A stretch of DNA of 58,469 bases, taken from NCBI GenBank assembly GCA_017438945.1, contig JAFRUI010000006.1, positions 1 to 58,469 on the forward strand, in the 5' to 3' direction. The notes beneath the pieces are model-generated. The model searched no databases, was not told where the DNA came from, and saw only the letters and a list, made by a program, of their open reading frames with translations. Source of the DNA: Bacteroidales bacterium (GTDB taxonomy: Bacteria; Bacteroidota; Bacteroidia; Bacteroidales; WCHB1-69). Position 1 is the stretch's first letter. Every line of letters begins with the position of its first letter. The translations under genes were made by a program, and so were the position numbers. Shown here one piece after another: positions 371 through 56,820 of the stretch.

Positions 371-417
371 TAATTGATAATGGATAATTGATAATGGATA
401 ATTGATAATGGATAATT
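371..417. repeat. heptad array, ATAATTG/ATAATGG words
   Basis: Alternating ATAATTG and ATAATGG units follow one another just 5' of the tRNA. Another tract of the same word class (438-470) lies 20 bp away. Confidence 0.85.
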
Positions 418-437
418 AAATCCTCAAATCGTACGTA

Positions 438-470
438 ATTCCTAATTATCAATTATCAATTCTCAATTAT
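438..470. repeat. heptad array overlapping the ychF stop codon
   Basis: CTAATTA, TCAATTA, TCAATTC and TCAATTA run consecutively with a 7-nt period. The last unit contains the TAA stop of ychF at 467-469 (minus strand). Confidence 0.85.
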
Positions 471-1564
471 ACATTGAAACGAATGTGCAGGATGTCACCG
501 TCTTGCACTTCGTAGTTCTTGCCTTCGACCGCCAACTTGCCGGCCTCTTTGCATTTCAGCTCCGACCCGTATTTCACCAGGTCGTCGTATTTGATGACCT
601 CCGCACGGATGAAGCCGCGCTCCAGGTCGCTGTGTATGACGCCTGCCGCCTGCGGTGCCAACATGCCCCGCGTGATGGTCCAGGCACGGTTCTCCTTGCC
701 GCCGACGGTGAAGAAGGAGATGAGATCCAACATCTTGTAGGCTGCACGGATCACCTTGTTGACGCCCGGCTCGGTCAAGCCCACATCGGCCAAGAAGGCC
801 TTGCGGTCCTCTTCGCTCTCCAACTCGGCGATTTCGGATTCGATTTTGGCCGCGATGACCAACATCTCTCCGCCGTGCTCTTCCACATATTTCTTCACGG
901 CCTCGGAATAGGCGTTCCCGGTGGCCGCGTCATCGTCATTCACATTGCACACGAACATCACGGGCTTCTCGGTGAGCAGCATCATGTCGGCCACCACCGC
1001 TTTCTCGTCGGGCGTGACTTCCAAGGTGCGCACATTCTGGAAACCTTCCAGATGTTCCTTATATTTCAACAGAACAGCAAGGTCGTGCTTGGCGGTCTTC
1101 TCGCCGACTTTCGCGGCTTTCTCCACCTTGGTGATCTTGCGTTCAATCTGTTCCAAATCCTTGCATTGTAGCTCGAAATCGACAATCTCGATGTCTCTCA
1201 CCGGATCCACTGAACCTTCCTCGTGGGGGAGGGCAGGGTTGTCGAAGCAGCGCAGCACGTGGATGAGCGCGTCGCACAAACGCACGTCTGCGAGAAAGCT
1301 GTTGCCGATGCCGGCACCGGTGCTCGCACCCTTCGCCAAACCGGGGATATCGACGATGTCCAGGTTGGCATAGACCAGCTTGTCGGCATGGATGAACGAG
1401 TCGATGTGGGTCAGACGTTCGTCGGGCACCTGACACACACCGATGTTGGACTTGTTCGTACTATACGCGAAATCCGTCACCTCCGCCTTCGTGTTGGAGA
1501 TGCAATTGAACATCGTGGTCTTACCCGAGTTCGTCAGTCCTACTATGCCGCATTTTAATCCCAT
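467..1564 (-). CDS. ychF: YchF/Ola1-type P-loop ATPase
   Basis: The 365-aa product has the usual YchF length and layout. A G1 loop GLTNSGKTT lies at residues 9-17 and a G3 motif DIPGLAKGAS near 72-81. A central coiled coil spans about 130-170, and a C-terminal TGS-type domain covers about 280-365. The G4 position reads CNVND instead of NKxD, as expected for a family member that prefers ATP to GTP. YchF binds ribosomes and is linked to stress responses in other bacteria. The gene probably follows the NifU-like gene in one minus-strand transcript; their 124-bp gap is almost entirely heptad arrays. The stop codon lies inside another heptad array. Confidence 0.96.
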   Translation of the reverse strand: MGLKCGIVGLTNSGKTTMFNCISNTKAEVTDFAYSTNKSNIGVCQVPDERLTHIDSFIHADKLVYANLDIVDIPGLAKGASTGAGIGNSFLADVRLCDALIHVLRCFDNPALPHEEGSVDPVRDIEIVDFELQCKDLEQIERKITKVEKAAKVGEKTAKHDLAVLLKYKEHLEGFQNVRTLEVTPDEKAVVADMMLLTEKPVMFVCNVNDDDAATGNAYSEAVKKYVEEHGGEMLVIAAKIESEIAELESEEDRKAFLADVGLTEPGVNKVIRAAYKMLDLISFFTVGGKENRAWTITRGMLAPQAAGVIHSDLERGFIRAEVIKYDDLVKYGSELKCKEAGKLAVEGKNYEVQDGDILHIRFNV

Positions 1565-1569
1565 TTGTA

Positions 1570-1642
1570 ATGGTTATTGGTTATAGGTTATTGGTTATTG
1601 AGGTTTAGAGTTTAGAGTTTATGGTTTAGAGTTTAGAGTAAA
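1570..1642. repeat. two abutting heptad arrays upstream of ychF
   Basis: Positions 1570-1600 are, on the minus strand, a four-unit ATAACCN element (CTCAATAACC...ATAACCATTA) ending 5 nt before the ychF ATG. Positions 1603-1642 hold five GTTTAGA-type units (one GTTTATG) and a final GTAAAGG. Confidence 0.9.
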
Positions 1643-1666
1643 GGGTTATAGTCCCTTTTCCCGAAA

Positions 1667-1695
1667 GTTAATAGCTAACAGCCAAAAGCTAAAAT
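1667..1695. repeat. heptad array containing the NifU-like stop codon
   Basis: TAATAGC, TAACAGC, CAAAAGC and TAAAA follow a YAANAGC pattern. The TAG stop of the NifU-like gene at 1689-1691 (minus strand) is part of the last word. Confidence 0.85.
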
Positions 1696-13465: not shown

Positions 13466-13492
13466 AACGGCCAATAGCGAACTGCTAAAACG
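13461..13492. repeat. heptad-type array holding stop codons of two convergent genes
   Basis: GCTAAAA, CCAATAGC and GAACTGCTAAAA words occupy the 19-bp gap and both gene ends. The cdsA TAA is at 13463-13465 and the opposing gene's TAG at 13485-13487 (minus strand). GCTAAAA yields TAA on one strand and TAG on the other. Confidence 0.85.
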
Positions 13493-15002
13493 ATACTTTC
13501 ACGCCGAAATGTATCTTCCCCGTTTTGAGGGAGATGTGGTTCTCACGTTGTCTTGGCAGGGCATACTCGAAATAGAAAACACCGCTTCGCACCCCGACAT
13601 TGACACCTAATCCGAAGCCGAAAGGTGTGTCAAACAGGTAGTTGTGGTACCCTTGTTGCTCGTATGTACCACCGTCGAAGAAGACATGTACATCGGAGTT
13701 CCGCCCAAACAGGTATCTTAATTCCGCCGAGTAGAGCAGATAGGTGCTGGCGTATAGTTCGTTTTCCGTGAATCCCCGGATTTGTCCTTCCCCGCCAATC
13801 TTGAACATTTCATTGCGGTAGTGTGGTCCCGTGAGCATACTGCCCGCCTGTGTCCGGAGCATGAGGACAAGTTGCTTGTAGATAGGAATATATCCCGATA
13901 GTCCGCCCATCAGACGATAGGAAGTTTTTGTGGTATTGACGCTGGAGGGTTCTAATTCGTTATGGTGTCGGTCAGGTAGCAATATCCTGCGTCCTGCGGC
14001 GGCATCTGCGTACAATTCAAAACCGAGCCTCGGCTGGTAGGGATTGTCCATTTGCCTGACTTGCAACGACAATCCATACAGGATATTGCGGTGGCTCATA
14101 CACGAAGTGTCCGCAATCGAAGAAGAACTGGAAGTGTTCAGTAGCTGCGACTGCGTGAAGTCGATGTAGGGGCGCAGGTAGCTGTCGTGGCGGAAATGGT
14201 ACGGGATGCCAAGATGGTAGTTCAGGGTCAGATATGTGGTGTCCTGTTTGTCAAGCCGGAAATGCCCGTCGATGCCGAAGCGTGTGCGGAAAAGGAACGG
14301 GAAGCTGGCGTCTAGATTGAGGTACTGGGAATGTTTCTCGCTGCTGCGCCAGTCCAGGGAGAGTTGTTCTCCGATATGGAAAATGTTCAGCAACGACAAC
14401 GAAAGTTCGCCGGTAACGGCCAGTTTTCCTGTCATTTCGTTCACCGGTTGAAATCCGATGTAGCCGTCAAATCGGTTGACTTGCCGTTTATCCAAGAAAA
14501 CGTAAAGTAGCGTTTTGTCTTCCTCAAAGGAGATGCCGGCAGGCTGTATGACCGTGGCGAAGGGAATAGCCTCCAGTCTCTTGGAAATTTCTTGTACCGT
14601 TTTCTCGGAATAGGGGGCTTTCCGCCGCAATCCCAAGTAGGGCCAAAGGTAGCTTTGGCTCAGTTTCAGGTTGCCTTTCAACACGATGGAGTCGATTTTG
14701 GTGTAGCGGCCCCGCTCGATACGCATCCGGTAGAGTGGGGTGGTGTCGTTATCCCATTCGGTAGTGAGGTTCACGGATGCGAACGGATAGCCATGGTTTT
14801 CCAAGTATTGCACGATTTTTTCGGCAGATTGCGGGTAGTTGTCCAAGGTTAGCGTCTGGTTTTTCCGCCCGATGACTTTCGCGTCCCGTAGCAGTTCCAC
14901 GTCGCTTTCGTTGAAAACAATCGAAGACGACTGTCCGAACACGAAAACGGCATTCAGGACTAGCAGGGCTTCAATAACCAATAACCTATAACCCATAACC
15001 AT
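13485..15002 (-). CDS. BamA/TamA-like POTRA plus beta-barrel outer membrane protein
   Basis: The 505-aa product has a hydrophobic N-terminus, one or two POTRA-like segments to about residue 170, and a 16-strand-like barrel ending in the aromatic IHFGVKVSF. The conserved barrel element GGEGQIRGF is near 400, with FFDGG and GFGLGVNVGV nearby. At this length it resembles the single-POTRA surface-antigen proteins of Bacteroidota, not BamA proper. The first 11 residues (MVMGYRLLVIE) are encoded by an ATAACCN heptad element read in reverse. The start overlaps the folC end by 17 bp. M3 at 14996 is an alternative start. Confidence 0.82.
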   Translation of the reverse strand: MVMGYRLLVIEALLVLNAVFVFGQSSSIVFNESDVELLRDAKVIGRKNQTLTLDNYPQSAEKIVQYLENHGYPFASVNLTTEWDNDTTPLYRMRIERGRYTKIDSIVLKGNLKLSQSYLWPYLGLRRKAPYSEKTVQEISKRLEAIPFATVIQPAGISFEEDKTLLYVFLDKRQVNRFDGYIGFQPVNEMTGKLAVTGELSLSLLNIFHIGEQLSLDWRSSEKHSQYLNLDASFPFLFRTRFGIDGHFRLDKQDTTYLTLNYHLGIPYHFRHDSYLRPYIDFTQSQLLNTSSSSSIADTSCMSHRNILYGLSLQVRQMDNPYQPRLGFELYADAAAGRRILLPDRHHNELEPSSVNTTKTSYRLMGGLSGYIPIYKQLVLMLRTQAGSMLTGPHYRNEMFKIGGEGQIRGFTENELYASTYLLYSAELRYLFGRNSDVHVFFDGGTYEQQGYHNYLFDTPFGFGLGVNVGVRSGVFYFEYALPRQRENHISLKTGKIHFGVKVSF

Positions 15003-15003
15003 T
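14970..15003 (+). repeat. four-unit ATAACCN element across the folC/barrel junction
   Basis: CTTCAATAACC, then ATAACCT, ATAACCC and ATAACC, then ATTG. On the minus strand it supplies the folC TAG stop (14986-14988) and the first codons of the next gene. Confidence 0.92.
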
Positions 15004-16293
15004 GAAAAGCGATAATGCCTCGCCGACCACGAAACAACTGCCGGTGATGAAAATCACATCCTCCTTTTTCGCCGCCGCCTTCGCCGCCGCAACTGCGTCT
15101 TTCACAGATGGATAGGTCTCGCATGATAGTCCTTGCTTCCGCATTTTCGCCGCGAGTTTCTCTTGGTCCATTGCCCGCTCAATCTGGGCGCGGCAGACGT
15201 AATAGACAAACTCCTTGCGCAACAGCGGCAGGATATGGTCGATGTCTTTGTCGCTCACCATGCCAAAAACCACGTGGATTTTGCTATCATAGGAGGTTTT
15301 TTCTTCATATATGTTGGACATGGAATGCTTCAGGCAGGCGTAGTTGTGGCCCACGTCGCAGAGGATGCGCGGGTTTTCGGACAGAACCTGCCAGCGGCCG
15401 GTCAGTCCGGTGTTTTTCTGCATGTTCCATACGGCGGCGCCGATTTTGTCCTCCTGGATGTTTAGGACGAACTCCAGTACTTTTGCCGCTTGGAAGAAGG
15501 TGAGGGTGTTCTTGTCTTGATAATGGGCCTTAAACGGGGTACAGAGTGAATACACTTTCTCATGGGTGTCCTTATCGCTGATATCCATCCTGCATCCATT
15601 TCGGGTATAGCTGTAGTTGACATCGGCGGGAAACATCGGTGCATCGTGTTTCAGGGCGACATCTTCGAACACCGGGAAACTTTCGGGGTGGAATTCCCCA
15701 ATGACCACGGGTACTTTGTCCTTGATGATTCCAGCCTTCTCGTAGGCGATCTTCGCGATGGTGTCGCCGAGCAACTGCGTGTGTTCCAGCGAAATGTTGG
15801 TGATGACGGAGAGTAGTGGAGTGATGACGTTGGTGGAGTCCAGCCTTCCACCTAACCCGACCTCGATAACAGCGAAATCAATCTTTTGTTCAGCGAAGTA
15901 GTGGAACGCCAGCGCGGTGGTGATTTCGAAAAACGAGGGTTCCAAATGGGCGAATCTCTCCTGATATTGCTCGAAAAAGGCCAGCACGTCCTCCACGGGA
16001 ATCATCTCACCGTTGATGCGGATGCGCTCGCGGAAATCGACTAAGTGCGGCGACGTAAAGAGACCGGTTTTGTAACCGAGTTCCTGGAAGTAAGACGACA
16101 GGAAAGACGATACTGAGCCTTTCCCGTTGGTTCCGGCCACGTGCACGCAGCGCAGTTTCCGTTGCGGGTTGCCGATGATGTCAAGCAGGGCTTCGATGTT
16201 CTCGAGGCCTTCCTTGTATGCCGCACTTCCGACCTTATGGTACATCGGGTAGGCGGTGAAGATTCGTTCTAGTATTTCGTGATAGGTTTCCAT
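14986..16293 (-). CDS. folC: folylpolyglutamate synthase / dihydrofolate synthase
   Basis: The 435-aa product has the Mur-ligase-like FolC layout. The P-loop VAGTNGKGSVSS is near residues 52-63. SPHLVDFRERIRING is near 80-94, EVGLGGRLDSTN near 144-155, and a C-terminal Rossmann domain follows. It adds glutamate to folates. The last residues, FNGYGL and the stop, are encoded by the ATAACCN element, which suggests the native C-terminus was replaced. A TATCTTTG box at 16329-16336 lies 36 nt upstream. Confidence 0.95.
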   Translation of the reverse strand: METYHEILERIFTAYPMYHKVGSAAYKEGLENIEALLDIIGNPQRKLRCVHVAGTNGKGSVSSFLSSYFQELGYKTGLFTSPHLVDFRERIRINGEMIPVEDVLAFFEQYQERFAHLEPSFFEITTALAFHYFAEQKIDFAVIEVGLGGRLDSTNVITPLLSVITNISLEHTQLLGDTIAKIAYEKAGIIKDKVPVVIGEFHPESFPVFEDVALKHDAPMFPADVNYSYTRNGCRMDISDKDTHEKVYSLCTPFKAHYQDKNTLTFFQAAKVLEFVLNIQEDKIGAAVWNMQKNTGLTGRWQVLSENPRILCDVGHNYACLKHSMSNIYEEKTSYDSKIHVVFGMVSDKDIDHILPLLRKEFVYYVCRAQIERAMDQEKLAAKMRKQGLSCETYPSVKDAVAAAKAAAKKEDVIFITGSCFVVGEALSLFNGYGL

Positions 16294-16423: not shown

Positions 16424-16431
16424 CAAAGTTT

Positions 16432-16454
16432 CAAGTCTTAAGTCTTAAGTCTAA
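16432..16454. repeat. heptad array (AAGTCTT) overlapping the tonB-like stop
   Basis: AAGTCTT occurs twice and is followed by AAGTCTA. The TAG stop of the tonB-like gene (16451-16453, minus strand) sits at its edge. Confidence 0.88.
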
Positions 16455-17149
16455 CTGAAGACGATTATTCGCAGTTCCTCTTTCCCCGGTTTGTAGAGTG
16501 CTTGTTTGGCCCGAGCCACGCATTGTTGTTGGATATTCCGGTTGGTGATGGTCGTTTTGTGCTTGGAGTTGTTGATCACGCGCGCGTCGATGACGTGGCC
16601 GTCAGCGGCGATATGCACTTCCACGCATACCTGACCTTCCTCGTTGACTGTGGCGTCGATGTTGTTGATCATGCCGCGGTGGCCGGTGCCATAGCCCACT
16701 CCGCCGCCGCTGCCAGCTCCTTCACCGGGACCGAGGCCGGAGCCGGTCCCGCTTCCGATACCAGAACCTGAGCCGCCGCCACTGCCGCTACCGCCACGAC
16801 CGTGGTACATGGACGACTGGTCGGGCTTCGGCTGGGAGGGCACGGTTTGGGTTTGGGTATTTGTGGATGTCCGGTTGGAATGGGTCACTGCCGGGGCGTC
16901 CTGAGCGTTTTGGGTGGCATAGTTCTGCCCGGCGGAAGGTTTCGGGTTGGAAGCCACCTGAGGGGTACCGCCGCCCCCACCGCCGCCAACGGGAGCGATG
17001 TCCACATAGACCATCTGCTTAGGCGGTGGCGGGGGAATCTGTGTCTTAAGACTGCAGGCCAGAAGCAAAATCAACAATAATGCCATGGTGCCGATTGTCG
17101 CACACCATGCAATTACATTGTCCTTTCTATTCTCGTTAGATTTAATCAT
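16451..17149 (-). CDS. TonB-like energy-transducing protein
   Basis: The 232-aa product has one N-terminal membrane helix (about 14-33) and a Pro stretch QIPPPPPKQ. A Gly/Ser-rich periplasmic linker (about 50-160) follows, then a small C-terminal domain with EGQVCVEVHIAADGHVIDARV. This is the typical arrangement of a TonB/TolA-like partner of ExbB-ExbD. It would transmit proton-motive force to outer-membrane receptors. Its ATG overlaps the exbD TGA by 4 bp. The C-terminal domain is shorter than classical TonB. Confidence 0.83.
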   Translation of the reverse strand: MIKSNENRKDNVIAWCATIGTMALLLILLLACSLKTQIPPPPPKQMVYVDIAPVGGGGGGGTPQVASNPKPSAGQNYATQNAQDAPAVTHSNRTSTNTQTQTVPSQPKPDQSSMYHGRGGSGSGGGSGSGIGSGTGSGLGPGEGAGSGGGVGYGTGHRGMINNIDATVNEEGQVCVEVHIAADGHVIDARVINNSKHKTTITNRNIQQQCVARAKQALYKPGKEELRIIVFS

Positions 17150-18467: not shown

Positions 18468-18500
18468 CAATAACCAATAACCAATAACCCATAACCATTA
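18468..18500 (+). repeat. four-unit ATAACCN element upstream of ftsK
   Basis: TTCAATAACC, ATAACCA twice in overlapping phase, CATAACC, then ATTAT. It ends 5 nt before the GTG start of ftsK and lies in its leader. Confidence 0.92.
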
Positions 18501-37572: not shown

Positions 37573-37576
37573 ATGA
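37549..37576 (+). repeat. heptad array (AATGCTG) encoding the aroC C-terminus
   Basis: AATGCTG, AATGCTG, AATGTTG, AATG. It supplies the last codons and the TGA stop (37570-37572) of the aroC-like gene. Confidence 0.9.
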
Positions 37577-37609
37577 AAAAGATTAAAAGCAATCATATTC
37601 ATCTTTATT

Positions 37610-37664
37610 CATCGTTTCATCGCCTCATCGCTTCATCGCCTCATCGCCTCATCGCTTCATCGTC
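37610..37664 (-). repeat. 8-nt array (CATCGCYT) next to the mnmE stop
   Basis: Six to seven units, CATCGTTT, CATCGCCT, CATCGCTT and so on, end 2 bp from the mnmE TAG. On the mnmE strand the units read GATGAGGC/GATGAAGC, with TGA in every unit. Confidence 0.92.
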
Positions 37665-39044: not shown

Positions 39045-39066
39045 CAACTGCTAACTACTAACTAGA
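39045..39066. repeat. CTAACTR array between the tsaC-like gene and mnmE
   Basis: CAACTG, CTAACTA, CTAACTA. The tsaC-like TAG stop (39062-39064, minus strand) is part of it, and it fills the gap to mnmE. Confidence 0.85.
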
Positions 39067-39679: not shown

Positions 39680-39745
39680 GTTCCGATTATTTTTATGTCT
39701 ATATCAATTCTTGTCTGATTCTCAAAGATGGCAGTTTCGCATCTG

Positions 39746-39774
39746 TTCACTGATCACTATTCACTGCTCACTAA
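39746..39774. repeat. heptad array (NNTCACT) between SRP RNA and the tsaC-like gene
   Basis: GTTCACT, GATCACT, ATTCACT, GCTCACT, AAC: four units with a fixed TCACT and two variable bases. Confidence 0.9.
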
Positions 39775-39787
39775 CAAAAACAAAGAA

Positions 39788-39885
39788 GGGTAAGCGACTT
39801 ATATCGCATCGCTACAACCTTAATGCCCTTGCTACATTCCTGTCCTGGGGGAGTTATAAGGGAGCAGATCGTATAAGACTTACCC
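39788..39885 (-). ncRNA. ffs: signal recognition particle RNA (small, 4.5S-like)
   Basis: The 98-nt minus-strand segment starts GGGTAAG and ends CTTACCC, closing a long rod with CTTATA/TATAAG further in. The apical part CCCCAGGACAGGAATGT, followed by AGCAAGGG, matches domain IV of SRP RNA. A GGAA tetraloop sits on an ACA/TGT stem next to the CAGG/AGCA internal loop that Ffh recognises. A TATTTTTG box ends 5 nt before the predicted first base, and a T-rich stretch follows the 3' end. It targets membrane proteins with Ffh. Confidence 0.92.
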
Positions 39886-39889
39886 GCTG

Positions 39890-39897
39890 CAAAAATA
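39890..39897 (-). promoter_or_regulatory. -7 promoter box of SRP RNA
   Basis: Minus strand TATTTTTG, placed exactly where needed for a transcript starting at 39885. Confidence 0.75.
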
Positions 39898-41619: not shown

Positions 41620-41653
41620 TAATTCTTAATTCTTAATTCTTAATTCTAAATTA
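41620..41653. repeat. heptad array (AATTCTT) at the carbamate kinase stop
   Basis: AATTCTT three times, AATTCTA, then AATTA. The TAA stop (41651-41653, minus strand) closes it. Confidence 0.92.
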
Positions 41654-42601
41654 CCCTGCAATAATTCTCGTGCCGCAATTCGGGTCGTGCAGTTTTCCTG
41701 CCTCGGTGATGATGCAGGTCTTGCCGCTCTTCTCGACGTATTGGATGGCGGCGCGCACTTTCGGGGCCATGGAGCCTTCGGTGAAGTGCTTCTCCTCGAG
41801 GTACTGCTTGGCTTCGCTCACCGTGATAGTGTCCAAGGCCTTCTCACCGGGCTTGCGGAAGTTGATGTAGACTTTCGGGACGTCAGTGAGGATGTAGAAC
41901 TCGTCGGCGCCGATCTCCACAGCGGTGAGCGCGGAGGCAAGGTCCTTGTCGATGACCGCCTGCACACCTTTGAGGTAGCCGTCTTTCATGGCTACGGGGA
42001 TGCCGCCGCCTCCGACAGTCACCACGATGATGCCCTGTTCGGCCAATTGTTTCACTAACTTGACGTTCTGGATGCGCAGCGGTTTCGGGGAGGCCACCAC
42101 CTTGCGCCAGCCGTTCCCTTTGGGGTCTTCGCGATAAATATCGCCGGTCTCCTCATGGTATTGATCGGCTTCCTCTTTGGTGACATACGGTCCCACGGGC
42201 TTTGTCGGGTTTTGGAAGAGCGGGTCGTTGGCGTCGACCTCCACGTGTGTGAGCAGCGTGACGGTGTCTTTCTCCCAGCCTTTTTCGGCGAAGATGTGAC
42301 GCAGGCCTTCTTCGATGAGTGCGCCGATGGAGCCTTGCGTTTCAGCGACACAGAAGTTCAGCGGCATGTCCTCCACTTGGAAGGTCTCCTTGCCGGCTTT
42401 GTGCTGCAGCATGACATTGCCCACTTGCGGACCGTTGCCGTGACCGATGACAATGTTGTAGCCGTTCTCGATCAGCGGAATCAGGTTGCGACAGGTTTCC
42501 GTGACGTTATCGATCTGCTCCTGATAGGTGCCTTTCTGTTTGCTCTTCAGTAATGCGTTGCCGCCGAATGCGATGACGGCGAGTTTTTTCTTTTCTGACA
42601 T
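41651..42601 (-). CDS. arcC: carbamate kinase
   Basis: The 316-aa product matches the amino-acid kinase fold of carbamate kinase. AFGGNALL lies near residues 11-18 and GHGNGPQVGNV near 53-63. AETQGSIGALI and VTVGGGGIPV, plus the FTEGSMAPKV helix near the C-terminus, complete the pattern. It makes ATP from carbamoyl phosphate and ADP, typically in arginine or purine-derived fermentation. No arginine deiminase or ornithine carbamoyltransferase gene is adjacent. It ends in a strong intrinsic terminator. Confidence 0.95.
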   Translation of the reverse strand: MSEKKKLAVIAFGGNALLKSKQKGTYQEQIDNVTETCRNLIPLIENGYNIVIGHGNGPQVGNVMLQHKAGKETFQVEDMPLNFCVAETQGSIGALIEEGLRHIFAEKGWEKDTVTLLTHVEVDANDPLFQNPTKPVGPYVTKEEADQYHEETGDIYREDPKGNGWRKVVASPKPLRIQNVKLVKQLAEQGIIVVTVGGGGIPVAMKDGYLKGVQAVIDKDLASALTAVEIGADEFYILTDVPKVYINFRKPGEKALDTITVSEAKQYLEEKHFTEGSMAPKVRAAIQYVEKSGKTCIITEAGKLHDPNCGTRIIAG

Positions 42602-42635: not shown

Positions 42636-42670
42636 TTCAATAACCCATAACCCATAACCGATAACCATTA
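42636..42670 (+). repeat. four-unit ATAACCN element between M13 peptidase and arcC
   Basis: GCTTCAATAACC, CATAACC, CATAACC, GATAACC, ATTAT. It begins 4 bp beyond the M13 peptidase stop (TAA, minus strand), on the opposite strand to both flanking genes. Confidence 0.92.
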
Positions 42671-42673
42671 TGA

Positions 42674-44740
42674 TTACCAGATGTGTGAACGTTTTTCCGG
42701 TGCCATCCACATCGGGTCGCCGGGTTGGATGTTGAAGGCTTCGTAGAAGGGGTCGATGTGGCGCAGGGTGGCATTGACGCGCCAGCGGCCGAGGGCGTGC
42801 GGGTCGGTTTTGGTGCGGCGCAGAATCTCCGCTTCGCGGATGTTGGCGGCCCATACGGCGGCGTATGCCAAGAAGAAACGCTGTTCGGGCGTGAACCCAT
42901 CCATCTCGCCCTTGATCTGACCGTCTTTCTTGGCTTTCTGGAAAGCGGTGTAGGAAACGTTCAGACCACCGTTGTCGGCAATGTTCTCGCCCAATGTGAA
43001 TTCACCGTTGCCATAAACACCGGGAGCAACCTCGATACTGTTGAAATGATCGACGATGAGCTGGGCCTTCTCCTTGAAGGTGGCGGCGTCCTTTTCGGTC
43101 CACCAGTCGGCGAGGTTGCCGTCCTTGTCGTAGTTGCGGCCCTGGTCGTCGAAACCGTGGGTCATCTCGTGGCCGATCACCACGCCGATGGCACCGTAGT
43201 TGGCGGCGTCGTCAGCGTTCATGTCGAAGAACGGGGGTTGCAGGATGCCGGCGGGGAAGCAGATCTCGTTGGTGGTGGGGTCGTAGTAGGCGTTCACCGT
43301 CTGAGGAGTCATCTGCCACTCTGTCGGGTCAACGGGCTTGCCAATCTTGCCGAGACTGTAGGCCATGTCGAAACGGCGGGAGTTCATCACATTGGCGTAA
43401 TAGCTCTCCGTGCCGATGGTCAGGCCGCTGTAGTCACGCCATTTGTCGGGGTAACCGATCTTCACGGTGAAGGCAGCCAATTTGTCGAGAGCGTTTTTCT
43501 TGGTCTGGTCGGTCATCCAAGTGGAGGCTTTAATGCGCTCGCCGAGAGCCCATTGTAGGTTCTTGACCAGCTGCTCCATGCGTGCTTTCGCTTCTGCAGG
43601 GAAATATTTCTTGACGTACATCTGACCGACAGCTTCGCCCAAACAGTCGTCAATGTTGTCAATGACGCGTTTCCAGCGCGGGCGGTTCTCCTTGCGGCCA
43701 GAGAGGGTCTTGCCGTAGAAATCGAAGCTGGCATCCACAAATTCGTCGCTCAAGTAAGAAGCAGCGCCGCGGATGACGTTCCAGGCGAGGTATGCTTTGA
43801 TCACGTCAAAGTCCGTGACTTCGAGAATGTTGTTGACACCTTGGATATAGGTGGGCTGGCTCACGTTGAGCGTGTCAACCTTCAGATTCAGGGTTTTGAG
43901 GTATTGTTGCACGTTGATGGCGGGAATCATCTGCTGGAACTCCGCAGGTGTGCATTTGTGGATGGTCTGGTAAGGGTCGCGCAACACGGTCTTGTCGATA
44001 GCGTATTGTGCCAACAGAGTTTCCAAAGCCATCACGCGATTGGCCATCTCTTTTTCTTTGCCTTTGAAGCCGGCGATGGAACTATAATTTGACATGCCGA
44101 ACATCTTGGTCATCAGCTTCACGTATTCGTCGCGGATGTTCTGCTGGTCTTTGTCGAGGTAGTAGTCGCGGTCGCCGATGCCAAGTCCCGTCTGCCAGAT
44201 GTGTGCGATGGTCATGCTGCTGTTGTCGGGATCAGCGGAGCCGAACAGGGCGAAGAACGGGGTGGAACCTTCCATCAACATACGGGCCATCTTGACAGAC
44301 AGCTCGTTGCGCTGCATCTTGGCAATGTTCTGGAGTTCCGGTTGCAGAGGTTGCGCACCTTGTTTGTTGATGGCCTCGGTATTCATGGCCACATTGTAGA
44401 AATCGCCGATTTTCTGCTCGATGGTGCCGGGAGCGTTCTTCTGCGCCGCGATCTTGGTCACCAAATCTTTGAGTTGCGCCTGGTTGTTCTCCGCCAGCAC
44501 GTCGAAGCTGCCGTAACGGGCATATTCGTCGCCCAGCGGATTGTTGGCCATCCATCCTCCACAGGCGTACTGGTAGAAATCGGCGGTGGGCTTCACCGTC
44601 TTGTCCAAATTGCCGGCCGCAATGCCGGATGTCGTTTTTTTCGGTTTTTTGGGTTTCGCAGGAACTGCCATACTCGTTGTTGAAGCTAAAAAAACAAAAC
44701 CGAGTGCCATAACACTCGCCATCATGATGTTACTTTTCAT
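42674..44740 (-). CDS. M13-family (neprilysin/PepO-like) zinc metalloendopeptidase
   Basis: The 688-aa product has a signal peptide (residues 1 to about 26) and a Lys/Pro-rich linker. The large helical M13_N domain starts DFYQYACGGWMANNP. The catalytic domain has VIGHEMTHGFDDQG (HExxH near residue 524) and GENIADNGGL (the third ligand Glu region), ending ERSHIW. It should cleave oligopeptides in the periplasm. The frame is open 78 codons further through a CTTAGA repeat (Leu-Arg-Leu-Arg), but the TATATTTG box at 44800-44807 and signal peptide favour ATG at 44740. Confidence 0.94.
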   Translation of the reverse strand: MKSNIMMASVMALGFVFLASTTSMAVPAKPKKPKKTTSGIAAGNLDKTVKPTADFYQYACGGWMANNPLGDEYARYGSFDVLAENNQAQLKDLVTKIAAQKNAPGTIEQKIGDFYNVAMNTEAINKQGAQPLQPELQNIAKMQRNELSVKMARMLMEGSTPFFALFGSADPDNSSMTIAHIWQTGLGIGDRDYYLDKDQQNIRDEYVKLMTKMFGMSNYSSIAGFKGKEKEMANRVMALETLLAQYAIDKTVLRDPYQTIHKCTPAEFQQMIPAINVQQYLKTLNLKVDTLNVSQPTYIQGVNNILEVTDFDVIKAYLAWNVIRGAASYLSDEFVDASFDFYGKTLSGRKENRPRWKRVIDNIDDCLGEAVGQMYVKKYFPAEAKARMEQLVKNLQWALGERIKASTWMTDQTKKNALDKLAAFTVKIGYPDKWRDYSGLTIGTESYYANVMNSRRFDMAYSLGKIGKPVDPTEWQMTPQTVNAYYDPTTNEICFPAGILQPPFFDMNADDAANYGAIGVVIGHEMTHGFDDQGRNYDKDGNLADWWTEKDAATFKEKAQLIVDHFNSIEVAPGVYGNGEFTLGENIADNGGLNVSYTAFQKAKKDGQIKGEMDGFTPEQRFFLAYAAVWAANIREAEILRRTKTDPHALGRWRVNATLRHIDPFYEAFNIQPGDPMWMAPEKRSHIW

Positions 44741-44799
44741 TTGTAAGATATTAAAAATCAATATTCTAAAACAAAAATACCCCTTGCTCAAAGGGATGG

Positions 44800-44807
44800 C
44801 AAATATA
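44800..44807 (-). promoter_or_regulatory. -7 promoter box of the M13 peptidase gene
   Basis: Minus strand TATATTTG, about 60 nt before the ATG. Confidence 0.6.
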
Positions 44808-44842
44808 CATAAATTCTGATACGGTCGGTAGAGTTTTTTGCG

Positions 44843-44944
44843 CGATTTATGATTTGCAATTTGCGATTTACGACAAAGAAATCGGCATAGCTTAAGTTTA
44901 AGTTTAAGTCTAAGTCTAAGCCTAAGTCTAAGTCTAAGTCTAAG
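44843..44944. repeat. heptad array followed by a hexamer array
   Basis: 44843-44875 has GATTTAT, GATTTGC, AATTTGC, GATTTAC. 44892-44944 has two AAGTTT and six AAGTCT-like hexamers. The hexamer period is divisible by three, unlike nearly every other array here, and keeps a Leu-Arg frame open on the minus strand. Confidence 0.9.
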
Positions 44945-44971
44945 GTATCGTGTAATGGCTTCTCGCCAGTG

Positions 44972-45008
44972 CAATAGCTAAAAGCCAAAAACCAACAGCC
45001 AATAGCCG
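44972..45008. repeat. heptad array (YAANAGC) after the beta-helix gene
   Basis: CAATAGC, TAAAAGC, CAAAAAC, CAACAGC, CAATAGC. It begins 2 bp from the TAG stop of the beta-helix gene. Confidence 0.9.
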
Positions 45009-45010: not shown

Positions 45011-47008
45011 CTACCGCCAGTACTTCTCACTTCCCTTCACCACATAGCCTTTCAACTCGATGTTGTCGTTATGTCCTTGGTAAAAGAGTTTTCCAGTGCG
45101 TTTTGTTTTGCAGTTTTTGATGACGACGTCATTGTTCACCCCGTAAAAGCTGACGTACATCTTATCGCTACAGGGAATGAACGTACATTTGTAATATGTC
45201 GCATGGTTGTCGATGTAGTACCTTGCGTCGTCGCCGTTGTTCAGATACAGGTTGCAGCGGTCGTAGTTGCGTTTGGTGCCGTTGCTCGTGGAGTTGTAAC
45301 GGATCATTCCGATGGAGCAATTGTTGTATTTGATGTTGTAGCGGCTGTTCTCGTTGACGTTGTAGTTGAGGCGTGATTGTTCGATGTTCACGACATCGCT
45401 CTTGTCGTGGCGCAGGTTGAACGTCATGCTTCCCGGATAGACGTTTTTCGTGGTGTATTGTACCTTCATGCTGTTTTCAGAAGGGATCAGATAGGCCTTT
45501 CGGATGTCATAATGGATGGGCTGGACCGTGTTGACGGGGGAACTGGAGATGACGAGGTCCGCCAGACGGGAAGTGTCGGCATAGTGGAAATGCAAACCGT
45601 CGATTTTAATGTTTGCGATGTGGCTCACCAATGCGCCTGACTGGGTTTTCTTGGGGTTGAAGAGGATGATTTTCGAGATGTTGCCGGGAATGTTCACGAT
45701 GAGGTTTTTAATGCTGATGTTCGGCCAGCACTTCTTCGCGAGCTCAGGCCGGGAGTTGGTGGTGTTGTCCAATTGACCTGCCGAAATCAGGTAGTTGCGT
45801 GATGTCTGTGCGTCAAAAATGCAGTCTTTGAACGTCAGGTCGAACGGGGTGTAGGCATTGTAGGAGGGTTCTAAAAGGACAGGGATGAATTCCGTGAACC
45901 GGCACTCTTCAAACCAAACGGTTCCGAAAACGGAGGAGAATTGGTTGTACAGCTTGTTGAATTTGCAGTTGTAAATGAACACGTCGCGGCCATAGCAGTG
46001 AATGTCGAAACGGTTGATGTTACAGTCTTTCAAGGTGGTGTTGCTGAGGTTGTTGGTTCCGAAAACACCCCAGTTGGCGTTGGCGGTGAGACGTAGGAAA
46101 CTACTGTTCCACACATTGTTCATCTGGATGCCGTACCCATAGGTGTTCGTTCGGGAGTATGTGCCGTCGATGGTGACATCCTCAAGTGCAATGTTTGTGC
46201 AGTTCTCGATGTTGATGGCGGCATCGGCGTAGAGATTTTTGGTGTCGGGGGTGTTGATTCTTAATTTGCTTATTTCTAGATTGTTGATTCCATGAATATA
46301 GAAACAGAATGTCTTGGTGGTGGCGCTGGTGTCGCGGGTGATGGTCAGGTCTGTGATGGTTTTCAGCGTGTTGTCCGTGGGGTGCACGCTGGCTTTCAGG
46401 ATGGTGGAGTCGGTGGCATAGGCGGAAATGGGCTTGTTTTGCGCCTGCCCGTTGTACAGGAGAAGGAGGTCTTTACGCATAGCTCCGTATTTGTAGCCGG
46501 ACCGGTTGTTGACCCAAGGCTGCAGATCCTCCAGCAACAACAGGCAGGAACCTTCCGCCAAAGACGGGATAGCGGAGAAGTTCCCGGAATCGACGGCCGC
46601 CGGCGACAGCTCGACGCTTTGCCACAGCGTGTCTGCCATGGAGAAAAGATATTGCGTCTTGTGTTGGTTTTTCACGATCAGGTGCACCCCCGCGAAGTCG
46701 TTGTGGCGGGTCAGAGGTATGGGAAGGGAACTTTCAGTCACCTCAATGACTAGTGTTCCGATGCCTTGGTAGGAGACGTCTGCGCCCATCTCAACGGCTT
46801 TGGTGTGTGTGGCGTAGAGAACTTCGTATCTGGCGCTGTCGGTTTCCGCCTCGGCCAGACCGAAATCGAACGGGGAGATGAGCAGGGTGGTGTCCGTCTT
46901 GTCGTGCCGCTGTGCAAATGCCATATTTGACGAGACGATGAAAATACCTAAAACAGGGATTATAACTTTCAATATATCAGTCAATTCTAATTTTCTATTG
47001 TATGCCAT
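45011..47008 (-). CDS. secreted parallel beta-helix protein
   Basis: The 665-aa product has a signal peptide (cleavage near AFA32). An N-terminal domain of about 170 residues precedes a long run of short, Asn-rich turns such as NIENCTNIALEDVTIDG, NNLSNTTLKDCNI, RDVFIYNCKFN and GTVWFEECRF, typical of a right-handed parallel beta-helix. That fold occurs in polysaccharide lyases and surface adhesins. I see no obvious lyase active site and no T9SS sorting tail. Function unknown. Confidence 0.78.
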   Translation of the reverse strand: MAYNRKLELTDILKVIIPVLGIFIVSSNMAFAQRHDKTDTTLLISPFDFGLAEAETDSARYEVLYATHTKAVEMGADVSYQGIGTLVIEVTESSLPIPLTRHNDFAGVHLIVKNQHKTQYLFSMADTLWQSVELSPAAVDSGNFSAIPSLAEGSCLLLLEDLQPWVNNRSGYKYGAMRKDLLLLYNGQAQNKPISAYATDSTILKASVHPTDNTLKTITDLTITRDTSATTKTFCFYIHGINNLEISKLRINTPDTKNLYADAAINIENCTNIALEDVTIDGTYSRTNTYGYGIQMNNVWNSSFLRLTANANWGVFGTNNLSNTTLKDCNINRFDIHCYGRDVFIYNCKFNKLYNQFSSVFGTVWFEECRFTEFIPVLLEPSYNAYTPFDLTFKDCIFDAQTSRNYLISAGQLDNTTNSRPELAKKCWPNISIKNLIVNIPGNISKIILFNPKKTQSGALVSHIANIKIDGLHFHYADTSRLADLVISSSPVNTVQPIHYDIRKAYLIPSENSMKVQYTTKNVYPGSMTFNLRHDKSDVVNIEQSRLNYNVNENSRYNIKYNNCSIGMIRYNSTSNGTKRNYDRCNLYLNNGDDARYYIDNHATYYKCTFIPCSDKMYVSFYGVNNDVVIKNCKTKRTGKLFYQGHNDNIELKGYVVKGSEKYWR

Positions 47009-47073: not shown

Positions 47074-47146
47074 CAATAGTCATAGTTATAGTCATAAATC
47101 ATAAGTCCCAAGTCCTCAGTCTTAAGTCCTCAGTCTTAAGTCATAG
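47074..47146. repeat. long heptad array (GTCNTAA words) between divergent genes
   Basis: GTCATA, GTTATA, GTCATAA, ATCATAA, GTCCCAA, GTCCTCA, GTCTTAA, GTCCTCA, GTCTTAA, GTCATAG: about ten units, the longest array in the window, placed between two divergent promoter boxes. Confidence 0.88.
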
Positions 47147-47205: not shown

Positions 47206-47694
47206 ATGAGGAAAATAACATTAGAAACGGAAATGCGGGTTTACGACAACCGTGAAGAGTTGCCTGAGGACTTGCGAGAGTTGTTGCGACAAGCCGAGGA
47301 GGCTGCTACCCGTGCGTATGCGAAGTATTCCCATTTTCAAGTCGGTGCGGCCATATTGATGAACAACGGCAAGATTGTCACGGGTGCAAACCAGGAAAAT
47401 ACAGTCTATCCCTGTGGTTTGTGCGCGGAGCGTGTCGCGGCGTTTTCAGCTTCGGCAATGTATCCCGAAGTGCCGTTCAACAAGATCGCCATCACGGCCA
47501 TCAACCCCGACGAACCGCTCAAGGAGCCGGTCTCCCCGTGTGGAAGCTGCCGGCAAGTGCTCTTCGAATATGAGCAGAAATTCGGCCACCCCATCGAGGT
47601 CATCCTCGCCGGACAGGAGGGCCCGATATACCATTTGCAGAATGTGGCCATGTTGCTCCCCTACACCTTTCATGAAGGGTTCCTGCCTAAATAA
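47206..47694 (+). CDS. cdd: cytidine deaminase
   Basis: The 162-aa product has the tetrameric-type cytidine deaminase motif set. YSHFQVGAAI is near residues 43-52, CGLCAERVA near 69-77 with one zinc Cys and the catalytic Glu, and PCGSCRQVL near 106-114 with the other two zinc Cys. It deaminates cytidine and deoxycytidine in pyrimidine salvage. An alternative start is ATG at 47233. The TAA stop opens an AATGCTG-type array. Confidence 0.95.
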   Translation: MRKITLETEMRVYDNREELPEDLRELLRQAEEAATRAYAKYSHFQVGAAILMNNGKIVTGANQENTVYPCGLCAERVAAFSASAMYPEVPFNKIAITAINPDEPLKEPVSPCGSCRQVLFEYEQKFGHPIEVILAGQEGPIYHLQNVAMLLPYTFHEGFLPK

Positions 47695-47719
47695 TGCTGA
47701 ATGATGAATGATGATAGGC
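47692..47719 (+). repeat. heptad array at the cdd stop
   Basis: TAATGCTG, AATGATG, AATGATG, ATAGG. The cdd TAA is its first word. Confidence 0.85.
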
Positions 47720-47749
47720 GGACGTTAGAGACACAAAAAACTTAATTTA

Positions 47750-47830
47750 CAAATTGCAAATCACTAATCACTAATCACTAATCACTAATCACAAGCTTCA
47801 ATAACCCATAACCTATAACCCATAACCATT
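47750..47830 (+). repeat. two heptad arrays upstream of the DUF4878-like lipoprotein gene
   Basis: 47757-47793 carries AATCACT four times and AATCACA (NNTCACT pattern). 47797-47830 is a four-unit ATAACCN element, GCTTCAATAACC...ATAACCATTAT, ending about 24 nt before the ATG. Confidence 0.93.
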
Positions 47831-54954: not shown

Positions 54955-54962
54955 TATCTTTG
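54955..54962 (+). promoter_or_regulatory. -7 promoter box of the M24 aminopeptidase gene
   Basis: TATCTTTG, 18 nt before the ATG at 54981. Confidence 0.65.
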
Positions 54963-54980
54963 CCGCTTAAAATTCCAATT

Positions 54981-56267
54981 ATGCGTTATCAACCTTTGTC
55001 AGCTGAATTCTATACCCGCAACCGCCGTAATGTAGTCGGTGAGATGGCGGAAAACTCTGTGGCACTGCTCGTTTCACACGACGAGTATCCGCGCTGTGGC
55101 GACACCACGCATCCTTTCCGGCAGAACTCCGAACTGCTCTACCTGTGCGGCATCGACCAGGAGGAGACGACCCTGATGCTCGCTCCATGGCACCCGAACC
55201 CGGACTACCGCGAGGTACTTTTCATCAAGAATCCCTCACCTGAGAAGATCGTCTGGTTCGGGCACCGGCTATCCAAGGAGGATGCCAAGAAACTCTCCGG
55301 CGTGCGGAACGTGATGTTCAACGAGGAGTTCGAGAGCGTCCTCAACGCCGTAATGGTGCAGTCGGAGCATGTCTATCTCCATATTCCCGAAGACCCGCGT
55401 TTCCGGCAGGAACTCCCGACCCGCGAGATCCGCTTTGCCGACCGGCTCAAGAAGGACTATCCGCTGCACGACTACCGCCGTTTAGCCCCAATTCTCTATC
55501 CGCTGCGCAACGTCAAACAACCTGAGGAATTGGCCGCGATGAAGAAGGCGTGCGAGATTACAGGCAAGATGTTTACAAGAGCGTTATCTGCCATTGCACC
55601 AGGGAAATACGAGTACGAGATTGAGGCAGAGATGACCTACGAGGTGATTCGCAACGGCGCCACCACACATTCGTTCGCGCCCATCATCGCTGCCGGCCAT
55701 GACACCTGTATCCTTCACTATATCAAGAATGACAAGCAGATGCGTGACGGCGACCTGCTGCTGATGGACTTCGGCGCGGAGTACGCCAACTACGCCGGCG
55801 ACTGCTCCCGCACCGTTCCCGTGAACGGCAAGTTCACCCCGCGACAGAAGGCGGTCTATGAAGCGGTACTTTCTATTTACAAGGAGACCATCCCGCTTTT
55901 CAAGCCCGGCATGACCATCCACAAGATTAACGATTACGTTTTCAAACGGATGGACGAGGAGTTGATCAAGCTGGGTTTATACACGCAGGAAGATGTTGAC
56001 AATCAAGACTCTGCAATGCCTTGCTTCAAGAAGTACTATATGCATAACACCAGCCATTTCATCGGGTTGGATGTGCATGATGTAGGCCAGCGCGACTGGG
56101 TGTTCCAACCTGGCAACGTGCTGAGTTGCGAACCCGGCATCTACATCGCCGAGGAAGGCATCGGTGTCCGCATCGAAACCGACGTGGTCGTCGCCGACAA
56201 CCCCATCGACCTCATGGCGGATGTGCCCGTGGAAGTCGAAGAAATTGAAGCGAGAATGCGCGGTTAG
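54981..56267 (+). CDS. pepP: Xaa-Pro aminopeptidase (M24B, PepP-like)
   Basis: The 428-aa product has the aminopeptidase P N-terminal domain (RYQPLSAEFYTRNR, HPFRQNSELLYLCG) and a pita-bread catalytic domain. The metal ligands lie in LLMDFGAEYANYAGDCSRT (two Asp), HNTSHFIGLDVHD (His), SCEPGIYI (Glu) and GVRIETDVVV (Glu). It removes N-terminal residues before proline. The TAG stop is the first TAG of the CTAACTR/TTAGCAG array. Confidence 0.94.
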   Translation: MRYQPLSAEFYTRNRRNVVGEMAENSVALLVSHDEYPRCGDTTHPFRQNSELLYLCGIDQEETTLMLAPWHPNPDYREVLFIKNPSPEKIVWFGHRLSKEDAKKLSGVRNVMFNEEFESVLNAVMVQSEHVYLHIPEDPRFRQELPTREIRFADRLKKDYPLHDYRRLAPILYPLRNVKQPEELAAMKKACEITGKMFTRALSAIAPGKYEYEIEAEMTYEVIRNGATTHSFAPIIAAGHDTCILHYIKNDKQMRDGDLLLMDFGAEYANYAGDCSRTVPVNGKFTPRQKAVYEAVLSIYKETIPLFKPGMTIHKINDYVFKRMDEELIKLGLYTQEDVDNQDSAMPCFKKYYMHNTSHFIGLDVHDVGQRDWVFQPGNVLSCEPGIYIAEEGIGVRIETDVVVADNPIDLMADVPVEVEEIEARMRG

Positions 56268-56302
56268 CAGTTAGCAGTTAGCAGTTAGCAGTTAGTAGTT
56301 GG
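56263..56302 (+). repeat. TTAGCAG array holding the pepP stop, left arm around the S23 gene
   Basis: GGTTAGCAG, then TTAGCAG three times, TTAGTAG, TTGG. Its reverse complement resembles the array at 56784-56820, on the other side of the four-helix-bundle gene. Confidence 0.93.
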
Positions 56303-56368
56303 AGGTTTTGAACTGTTGGGTGTTGGAACTTTCTTTGTGATGTTTGGTGGGCGAATCGTTTTTCTTTT

Positions 56369-56376
56369 TAGTTTTG
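56369..56376 (+). promoter_or_regulatory. -7 promoter box of the four-helix-bundle gene
   Basis: TAGTTTTG with a TTTG at 56343-56346, 22 nt upstream, as a -33 element. This is one of the few boxes here with a full -33 match. Confidence 0.68.
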
Positions 56377-56411
56377 CAAATAAATTGAAAATAAAAAGAA
56401 AATAATTAAGC

Positions 56412-56801
56412 ATGAAACATAGTATAGTTCAAGAGAAGAGTCGGCGTTTTGCGTCAAGAATCATAAAGATGTATCAATATCTACAGCAACAAAAAAGGGA
56501 GTTTGTTATGTCGAAACAACTTTTGCGTTCAGGGACCAGCATTGGTGCCAATATAAGCGAGGCGTTATGTGCTCAATCGAGAAAAGACTTTTATGCAAAA
56601 ATGTATATCGCATACAAAGAATCTTCAGAAACGTTATATTGGATTGATATGCTGTTTGACAATGGATATATTACTGATTTCCAATATAAAAGCATTAAGA
56701 ATGACAATTTAGAACTTGTAAAAATGTTATCCGCGATAACGAAAACCCAAAAATATCCCAAATCCCAACAATGTTTCGAAAAAGCAACTGCTAACTACTA
56801 A
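56412..56801 (+). CDS. four-helix-bundle protein (S23/23S rRNA IVS protein family)
   Basis: The 129-aa product is all-helical, with the family's MSKQLLRSGTSIGANISEA segment near residues 32-50, then AYKESSETLYWIDMLFDNGYI near 71-91. Relatives are encoded inside intervening sequences of 23S rRNA genes in Leptospira and Coxiella, and share the fold of the Avd accessory protein of diversity-generating retroelements. No rRNA, reverse transcriptase or variable repeat is nearby. The gene is A/T-rich compared with its neighbours. Its last residues (KATANY) and stop come from the flanking CTAACTR array. Molecular role unknown. Confidence 0.88.
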   Translation: MKHSIVQEKSRRFASRIIKMYQYLQQQKREFVMSKQLLRSGTSIGANISEALCAQSRKDFYAKMYIAYKESSETLYWIDMLFDNGYITDFQYKSIKNDNLELVKMLSAITKTQKYPKSQQCFEKATANY

Positions 56802-56820
56802 CCGCTAACTACTAACTAAT
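56784..56820 (-). repeat. CTAACTR array, right arm around the S23 gene
   Basis: GCAACTG, CTAACTA, CTAACCG, CTAACTA, CTAACTA, AT. On the minus strand it reads TTAGTAG/TTAGCGG, matching the left arm at 56263-56302 over about 30 bases with a few transitions. Confidence 0.92.

Follow-up and report, generated by a model that had tools for sequence, protein, structure and literature searches.

The 58,469-nt contig JAFRUI010000006.1 of a Bacteroidales bacterium (assembly GCA_017438945.1), hereafter the window, carries between its genes short tandem tracts of 7-nt units (heptads), and the words repeated in these tracts are a small lexicon common to loci and to species. At orthologous gene edges a tract tends to persist while its word changes. 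We interpret the tracts, with a probability of about one half, as a lineage-specific expansion of the known heptanucleotide class of simple sequences, in which slippage, copying between tracts and a filter imposed by translation act together.

The window is contig C33 of a 1.86-Mb draft genome (G000, 63% complete), of which 736,536 bases (39.6%, window included) were analysed, together with 481,145 bases of a tract-rich relative (G020, 99% complete) and smaller samples from other genomes. Across 40 genomes of the genus, profile matches to RVT_1, MutS_V and Y1_Tnp were counted. Gene edges follow a longest open reading frame (ORF) rule made for the present analysis, not a gene finder, and a tract was scored at 10 or above, a threshold at which two-unit tracts are under-detected. 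Dinucleotide shuffles served as the null for period; for words, the seven columns of each tract were permuted, which keeps composition and period.

A seven-nucleotide period in intergenic DNA

The match rate within the intergenic DNA of the window peaks at 0.367 for lag 7, with harmonics at lags 14 (0.336) and 21 (0.319), whereas all other lags from 4 to 22 give 0.259–0.294. Coding DNA of the window shows the codon period only, with 0.240 at lag 7 and no peak; across the window, its genome and the genus the coding value at lag 7 is 0.240–0.259, level with lags 5 and 8. Nineteen period-7 tracts were scored in the window against 0.45 in shuffles, 58 against 1.2 in other contigs of the same genome (281 kb) and 20 against 0.3 in 100 kb of G020. 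A chance origin is thereby ruled out. The first-pass annotation, made from the letters of the window, had proposed a single, mostly intergenic class with a common period, recognisable by a lag-7 peak limited to intergenic DNA; the peak is present in the window and in the 281 kb, is missing from coding DNA, and with the excess over shuffles bears this proposal out. Both the excess of tandem 7-nt units over chance and their rarity in coding DNA agree with heptanucleotide long simple sequence repeats.

The period is not exclusive. Of the 240 tracts in the 736 kb of G000, as raw counts, 164 have a 7-nt period, 26 a 6-nt and 19 an 8-nt period; in the 281 kb there is likewise an excess over shuffles for period 6 (6 against 0.6) and for period 8 (5 against 0.3). 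Within the window, Tandem Repeats Finder reports 28 intergenic arrays that do not overlap and have periods of up to 24, and the 21 with period 7, 14 or 21 cover 624 of its 4008 intergenic bases. Five further heptad tracts, beginning at 14972, 26129, 32331, 37551 and 56786, lie mostly within ORF calls. Period-7 arrays scored within ORF calls number 5 in the window and 13 in the 281 kb, 10 of the latter no more than 11 nt from the ORF end. The window thus has about 26 heptad tracts; the figure of at least 30 given earlier is reached only when arrays of 6, 8, 10 and 11 nt are counted. The heptad words then listed do occur, GATTTRY only as two units at 44844 within an ORF call.

Beyond the window's genome the tracts are unevenly spread. 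Other genomes of the genus gave 27 tracts against 0.8 in shuffles, and other families of the order 4 against 0.5; in a wider sample they are sporadic (9 against 0.1 in Paludibacteraceae and a related metagenome-assembled genome, 3 against 0.1 in other phyla). Some genera outside the family are tract-rich (G268, G170, G045, G142), in stretches preselected by pattern-search matches. No period-7 tract was found in the 19.5 kb of short contigs sampled from G326 and G327, though both genomes are rich in matches to the AACTRCT pattern, or in the 20 kb sampled from G010; tract density is uneven within the genus. An assembly artefact is unlikely, because separately assembled genomes carry tracts at the same sites. 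A single known RNA family was also rejected: Rfam at gathering thresholds returns only the signal recognition particle (SRP) RNA and one tRNA in the window.

A shared lexicon and its turnover at orthologous edges

By shared 9-mers, the 164 period-7 tracts of G000 link into 8 clusters, against 45.7 in the column-permuted null, which leaves the earlier view, that the class is defined by period and not by sequence, only half correct. Ninety-four of 99 tracts in G020 have a 9-mer in common with G000 tracts (null mean 50, highest 66). The commonest words include ATAACCN, AACTRCT, GCYAAYAGC, CATTCNR, AATTATS and TCACTNN; families were assigned from a hand-made list that leaves 42 of 263 tracts unclassified. 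Families prefer edges, AACTRCT lying at stops in 18 of 20 cases and ATAACCN at starts in 35 of 48. Three-unit patterns of AACTRCT occur in 26 of the 40 genus genomes, with 0 to 355 overlapping matches per genome, and those of ATAACC in 22; in the order, 18 of 295 sampled genomes carry the ATAACC pattern, the window's own included. Unit number peaks at four over all families (79 of 208 tracts in G000, 47 of 131 in G020), and the peak stays at four when ATAACC is excluded (58 of 176 and 31 of 113).

The presence of a tract, with periods 6, 7, 8, 10 and 14 admitted, is associated between orthologous edges: where proteins are at least 92% identical and gaps measure 50 nt or more, the odds ratios are 16.5 (starts) and 25 (stops). 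In this top bin, just 12 of 37 pairs at starts and 10 of 20 at stops have an 8-mer in common. Across 116 start pairs and 70 stop pairs the word distances are mixed, some words being nearly identical and others unrelated. Words one letter apart make up 17% at starts and 29% at stops, compared with 5% and 4% of random pairs, as under drift, and words at least three letters apart make up 54% and 33%, as under replacement; words thus change by one letter, as in-phase mosaics or wholesale. Families differ in how well they are kept, the word being identical in 18 of 27 tally cells for ATAACCN, in 66 of 165 for AACTRCT and in none for several others.

The gap beside the SRP RNA (39784–39892) illustrates this turnover. 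A search for it gave 22 rows, reduced to 18 distinct ones after four contigs held twice were dropped. The RNA is identical over 107–109 nt in 11 distinct genomes, and the tract that follows its T-run falls, by reading, into four word classes, one of them in-phase mosaics. The 17 rows that have a tract show, by reading, no fewer than eight word classes, and 12 of the tracts are G-rich, 4 C-rich and 1 tied; the more distant L136 has no tract after the RNA. Here and at other edges words change between orthologous loci while the period is kept, the outcome of a comparison that the first-pass annotation had suggested.

One family appears the most stabilised. The ATAACC element has the near-fixed form GCTTCA-ATAACC-(NATAACC)x3-ATTA, mostly at starts, with exactly four units in 31 of 40 tracts in G000 and 14 of 21 in G020, a number that likens it to dispersed four-heptad elements of Geobacter. 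CTTC stands no more than 8 nt before the tract in 32 of 40 and 13 of 21, ATTA follows most, and an ATG lies 3–15 nt beyond in 31 of 40 tracts in G000, only 10 of 21 in G020. Among the 48 tracts with an assigned edge in both genomes together, 32 are at starts and read into the gene (median distance at starts 5), another 10 likewise read inwards from stops, and 6 point away from the gene. The element is kept at orthologous edges more than any other family with at least ten cells, and the ten genes tested, out of 21 found behind it, match ten unrelated Pfam groups. Bacteria of this kind make little use of Shine–Dalgarno pairing. The element is possibly an open 5′ leader, and a factor that reads it is possible.

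An 8-nt lexicon (TCATCGNY / GACGATGA) was also seen at edges of the heptad type, in the window at 37608–37664 and 36552–36575 and in L025, L029, L042 and L092; at some orthologous sites it replaces heptads. In other genera of the order (L186–L187 of G118, L172–L174 of G170) there are long heptad tracts with other words (CTCATAAC-like, GTTATGAG-like).

Gene edges, strand and the explanations weighed

Tracts lie close to genes, with a median distance to the nearer edge of −1 at stops and 8 at starts in G000, and of 1 and 10 in G020. The ORF rule accounts in part for the stop-side value, because any ORF that enters a stop-rich tract must end there; at some orthologous edges the gene ends at the same place whichever word follows. 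Strand is not random: irrespective of gene direction, tracts on the left side of a gap tend to be G-rich and those on the right side C-rich (111 for and 37 against, with 2 ties, among 150 of the 164 tracts in G000; 73 and 23, with 1 tie, among 97 of 99 in G020). Tract-free flanks show no C/G skew. For 50 start-side tracts, the initiation region folds at −5.47 kcal/mol in the native state versus −10.96 kcal/mol when the tract is flipped (P = 1.6e-7). ATG/GTG density at starts is 0.018 in sense versus 0.060 in antisense in G000, and 0.005 versus 0.068 in G020. Stop codons are enriched in sense over the column-permuted null, at 0.105 versus 0.058 in 77 pooled start-side tracts and 0.125 versus 0.098 in 130 stop-side tracts. 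The promoter-like TANNTTTG stands between tract and start in 39 of 190 cases (6.05 in shuffles) and up to 80 nt upstream of the tract in 14 cases of the same test (6.75 in shuffles); tracts therefore sit on both sides of promoter-like sites.

Stop arrays in three frames, for which periods coprime to 3 (7, 8, 10) might be expected, were rejected as the sole cause of the period. All three frames are closed by 65% of period-7 tracts at starts and 58% at stops (null 27% and 44%), and by 7% and 0% of period-6 tracts; many period-7 tracts thus leave frames open, as do nearly all of period 6, and start-side stops in G020 are no richer in sense.

We envision that slippage adds, removes and homogenises 7-nt units, that copying or template switching between tracts may spread and swap words, and that translation would filter tracts at gene edges and account for much of the preference for one strand. 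Upstream of a start codon the filter would admit a sense strand that is poor in G and in ATG/GTG and weakly folded, and after a stop codon one that is rich in stops; coding DNA would be spared because seven is not a multiple of three. Among 101 gaps inside same-word tracts (80 pairs), 7 nt is the commonest size with 17 cases, and another 11 measure 14 or 21 nt (28 in total), consistent with copy number changing in unit steps as in known heptanucleotide repeats, although repeat alignment by itself favours 7-nt gaps.

Several further observations weigh against this interpretation. Copying between tracts is deduced from shared words and the GCTTCA leader, not from a traced donor–recipient pair, and the mode at four units is unlike open-ended slippage and suggests selection on length or a copying unit of about 28 nt. 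The role of translation meets exceptions. Column-permuted start tracts fold as weakly as real ones (−4.77 kcal/mol, P = 0.12), and it is therefore base composition, not wording, that keeps the region open; flipping stop-side tracts leaves folding unchanged; right-hand stop edges in G020 depart from the strand rule (10 versus 12), and start-side stops there are scarcer in sense than in antisense (0.088 versus 0.108). Nor need translation account for strand in all cases, because the SRP locus has a non-coding RNA on its left and still 7 of its 11 tracts are G-rich (3 C-rich, 1 tied); beside tRNAs (22 in the sample), one of three tracts follows the rule. The association of tract presence weakens or loses significance at lower identity (odds ratio 1.88, P = 0.37, for starts at 85–92%), stops at 85–92% being an exception with an odds ratio of 18. 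Finally, the longest-ORF rule by construction ends ORFs at stops within tracts, and the orthologous-edge counts, being built from genome pairs, are not independent.

Other readings share parts of this evidence. Purely local slippage, with each tract born and grown independently and shared words arising from base composition and convergent filtering, would fit the mostly 7-nt indels of same-word tracts and the over-representation of heptameric simple repeats in many bacteria (Mrazek 2007, as cited in PMC4679880 and PMC4692102). It seems unlikely, given that more words are shared than under a null preserving composition and periodicity, that a leader outside the repeat is common to ATAACC tracts and that unrelated words occupy the same orthologous edge. 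At the other extreme, a genome-wide overwriting process might copy strings of about 28 nt, or four 7-nt steps, between gene edges, rewriting linkers from a lexicon that is shared and particular to the species, with site, phase and strand generally unchanged; the 7-nt step would then come from the copying machinery rather than from any word. We regard this stronger form as doubtful. Another alternative is that one or more modular RNA- or DNA-binding factors, comparable to TRAP, read words at 7-nt spacing before starts or after stops. The edge preferences of families, the near-fixed length, leader and tail of ATAACC (with a nearby ATG mostly in G000) and its retention in 18 of 27 cells all speak for such sites; we nevertheless consider them rather improbable as a general account, since close relatives with conserved neighbours swap words, several of the remaining families are never kept in the tally, the tested genes that follow the ATAACC element fall into unrelated Pfam groups, genomes of the genus vary from none to hundreds of pattern matches, and many word-specific readers would be required. 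Between the two mechanisms first suggested for the window, a copying or slippage process and a factor that reads spaced words, the former therefore fits better; a reader of one given word suits most families poorly because close relatives exchange words.

Templated extension of DNA ends is very unlikely. Here a telomerase-like polymerase or reverse transcriptase would add G-rich heptads outward from ends at gene edges, which are then joined, as might be suggested by the preferred length of about 28 nt, by the inversion of neighbouring tracts that share a gap (11 of 40 adjacent pairs) and by a G-rich strand that at either edge points away from the gene. RVT_1 is matched in 9 of 40 genus genomes, among them the rich G006, G013, G019, G009 and G002. 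No match was found in G020, G326, G327, G011 and G012, which are rich in one pattern or both and have a completeness of 94% or more, or in G000 itself (63% complete). A reverse transcriptase thus seems not to be needed and was rejected as a cause; in addition, folding gives a simpler explanation for start-side orientation, and no intermediate was seen. Least probable of all, in our view, is that the tracts are arms of RNA or DNA hairpins such as terminators or protectors of mRNA ends. Adjacent tracts score as complementary in 11 of 40 pairs in G000 and in 4 of 21 pairs in G020, and the mean folding z is −2.32 for the 31 gaps that have two tracts, yet only 33 of 133 tract-bearing gaps have at least two tracts, and single-tract gaps average −1.0 (116 gaps). 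The mean pairing score in G000 (7.50; null 5.44, sd 0.69) lies 3 sd up yet below the highest of 200 shuffles (7.92), while that in G020 is not raised (6.57 versus 5.82, sd 0.99), and 4 of 21 pairs there also score as direct repeats. Pairing, being limited to a minority, was rejected as a general rule.

Two enzymatic causes were likewise set aside. Loss of mismatch repair is at odds with MutS_V matches in 40 of 40 genus genomes. TnpA_REP-type Y1 transposases have a gene in 36 of 40, most word-poor genomes among them, with no clear association; the four genomes without one have no match to either word pattern. As side observations, MutS_V matches reach 1e-83 or better, or close to it, in 36 of the 40 genomes, and the genome G023, rated 100% complete, has only weak ones (best 7e-26), which may point to loss of MutS1.

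Tracts of the window and related repeats

Individual tracts are listed in the table below.

Table. Tandem tracts of the window, in order of position
Tract	Positions	Strand	Context
Heptad, TAATTGA/TAATGGA	371–417		Between tRNA-Gly (293–366, −) and ychF stop
Heptad, AATTATC	436–470		Adjoins ychF stop; inverted partner of 371–417 (inverted score 18)
ATAACC family, four units	1568–1600	−	3 nt upstream of ychF ORF (467–1564, −)
Heptad, GTTTAGA (reverse complement TCTAAAC)	1603–1639		Beside ATAACC tract 1568–1600
ATAACC element, GCTTCA leader, four units	14968–15003	+	Overlap of ORFs 13485–15002 and 14986–16293 (ORF ends probably misplaced)
Heptad, AAGTCTT	16426–16452		At stop of ORF 16451–17149 (−)
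ATAACC, four units	18468–18496	+	9 nt before ftsK ORF (18506, +)
Heptad, AATGCTG	22031–22048		
Heptad, AATTCAN/ATTCATA	22146–22170		Ends 2 nt before ORF 22173 (+)
Heptad, AATTCTC/CATTCTC	31125–31156		Just upstream of promoter-like site TATTTTTG
Heptad, GAATGTAGAATGAAG	32331–32351		Inverted relative of 32438–32469
Heptad, CATTGTA/CATTCTA	32438–32469		Before TPR-protein ORF 32484 (+)
10-nt, ACGATGAAAA	35739–35770		Heptads (AAACCGN/AAATCGN type) here in three same-genus relatives
8-nt, GATGATTA	36552–36575		Relatives here: GATGAAAC octads or GACTGAG/AAGTCTT heptads
Heptad, AATGCTG	37551–37575		Overlaps end of chorismate synthase ORF 36631–37572; longer in relatives
8-nt, TTCATCGC/TCATCGNY	37608–37664		Beside mnmE stop
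Heptad, AACTRCT	39046–39064		Fills gap between ORF 39062–39679 and mnmE; GAATTAT in L048
Heptad, TCACTNN	39743–39773		Between SRP RNA (39784–39892, −) and ORF 39062–39679; word varies by species
Heptad, TAATTCT	41620–41652		At stop of amino-acid-kinase ORF 41651–42601 (−)
ATAACC, GCTTCA leader, four units	42640–42666	+	7 nt from stop of M13-peptidase ORF 42674–44974 (−)
6-nt, TAAGTC/TAAGTT	44893–44944		
Heptad, AATAGCTAAAAGCC	44973–45007		Between ORFs 42674–44974 and 45011–47008
Heptad, AGTCCTA/AGTCTTA	47090–47145		
Heptad, AATGATG	47693–47714		Overlaps cytidine deaminase ORF stop
Heptad, AATCACT	47744–47792		
ATAACC, GCTTCA leader, four units	47801–47827	+	26 nt before ORF 47854
Heptad, GTTAGCA (reverse complement AACTGCT)	56260–56300		Overlaps stop of ORF 54960–56267 (+)
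Heptad, AACTRCT	56786–56818		Overlaps stop of ORF 56412–56801 (+)

The window also has other dispersed repeats. At 26130–26259 a 64-nt unit whose core is palindromic (GCCCCGACAGGGGC) stands twice, head to tail. A motif from this core was counted 19 times in the 736 kb of G000 and 13 times in the 481 kb of G020, and is absent from 232 kb of other families; the unit is a dispersed repeat resembling repetitive extragenic palindromes (REP), beside heptad tracts in several gaps. A second dispersed palindromic repeat, with the motifs GTAGAGACG and CGTCTCTAC, lies at 2065–2092, and GTAGAGACG counts 49, 19 and 2 in the same three samples. The TnpA_REP-like Y1_Tnp genes, present in 36 of 40 genus genomes, could be partners of such palindromes. 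The window comes from uncultured gut Bacteroidales, and two of its proteins bear a secretion-system sorting tail.

The first-pass annotation knew of no described class with these properties; heptanucleotide repeats have, however, been described (PMC4679880, PMC4692102, PMC2700814), with relatives in Beggiatoaceae, Xanthomonas, Nostoc and Geobacter, and the heptad class is therefore not new. In the parts of these sources considered here, TAACTGA forms direct repeats in marine Beggiatoaceae (MacGregor 2015, PMC4679880) and occurs in five Bacteroidetes, one with a set reversed after a stop and some beside other heptamer repeats. ATAACCN shares with TAACTGA one orientation just upstream of start codons, whereas about a dozen word families share edges here; TAACTGA in three copies has no match in G000 and at least one match in 5 of 295 genomes sampled from the class. 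The heptads GGGAATC and GGGGA(T/C)T of Xanthomonas and Nostoc (Rehm 2015, PMC4692102) are likewise dispersed, mainly intergenic and variable at some positions, and those of Xanthomonas, as excerpted, have mostly four units, form 70 and 75 close inverted pairs in two genomes and lie near the preceding ORF. Unlike their single G-run word, suited to quadruplexes, the present lexicon is AT-rich; its leading words and 9-mers are without GGG, and G makes up 5–22% of the sense strand. In Geobacter metallireducens, four tandem heptanucleotides make up each of 49 dispersed elements, and another class has five heptads at 15 of 16 sites, each class with one consensus, the first GC-rich and also inside genes, according to the relevant sections of PMC2700814. 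The P6b stem of the Nostoc trnL intron resembles our tracts in its degenerate heptads on stem arms and the replacement of repeat classes among strains, and differs, in the portions of PMC3488679 and PMC4476775 used, as a single RNA stem-loop locus with no genome-wide lexicon. As cited in PMC4679880 and PMC4692102, Mrazek 2007 found heptanucleotides to be the commonest unit of long simple sequence repeats in most genomes and proposed polymerase slippage with a 7-nt contact; these citations make no mention of a lexicon, edge preference or word turnover at orthologous edges. Rapidly evolving tandem repeats are described from Borgs (PMC9879509, in extract), and the portions of PMC4060949 consulted hold no heptanucleotide passage. 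In the literature searched, which most subscription papers fall outside and which in part was available as extracts, no description was found of a multi-word lexicon with word turnover at fixed gene edges; this is what appears new here, though such a search is not proof of absence.

A heptameric excess in bacteria was reported in 2007, and detailed literature on it was said to be unavailable in 2015, in the passage drawn on from PMC4692102. In this genus, with many tracts per genome, dozens of sequenced species and near-identical neighbours beside differing words, the rates of drift, unit change and replacement become measurable, and the old question of why bacterial repeats favour seven letters is now open to test. 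If words are indeed copied between loci, this would be a new route of intergenic sequence evolution; and if the ATAACC element acts in leaders, it would constitute a new translation module.

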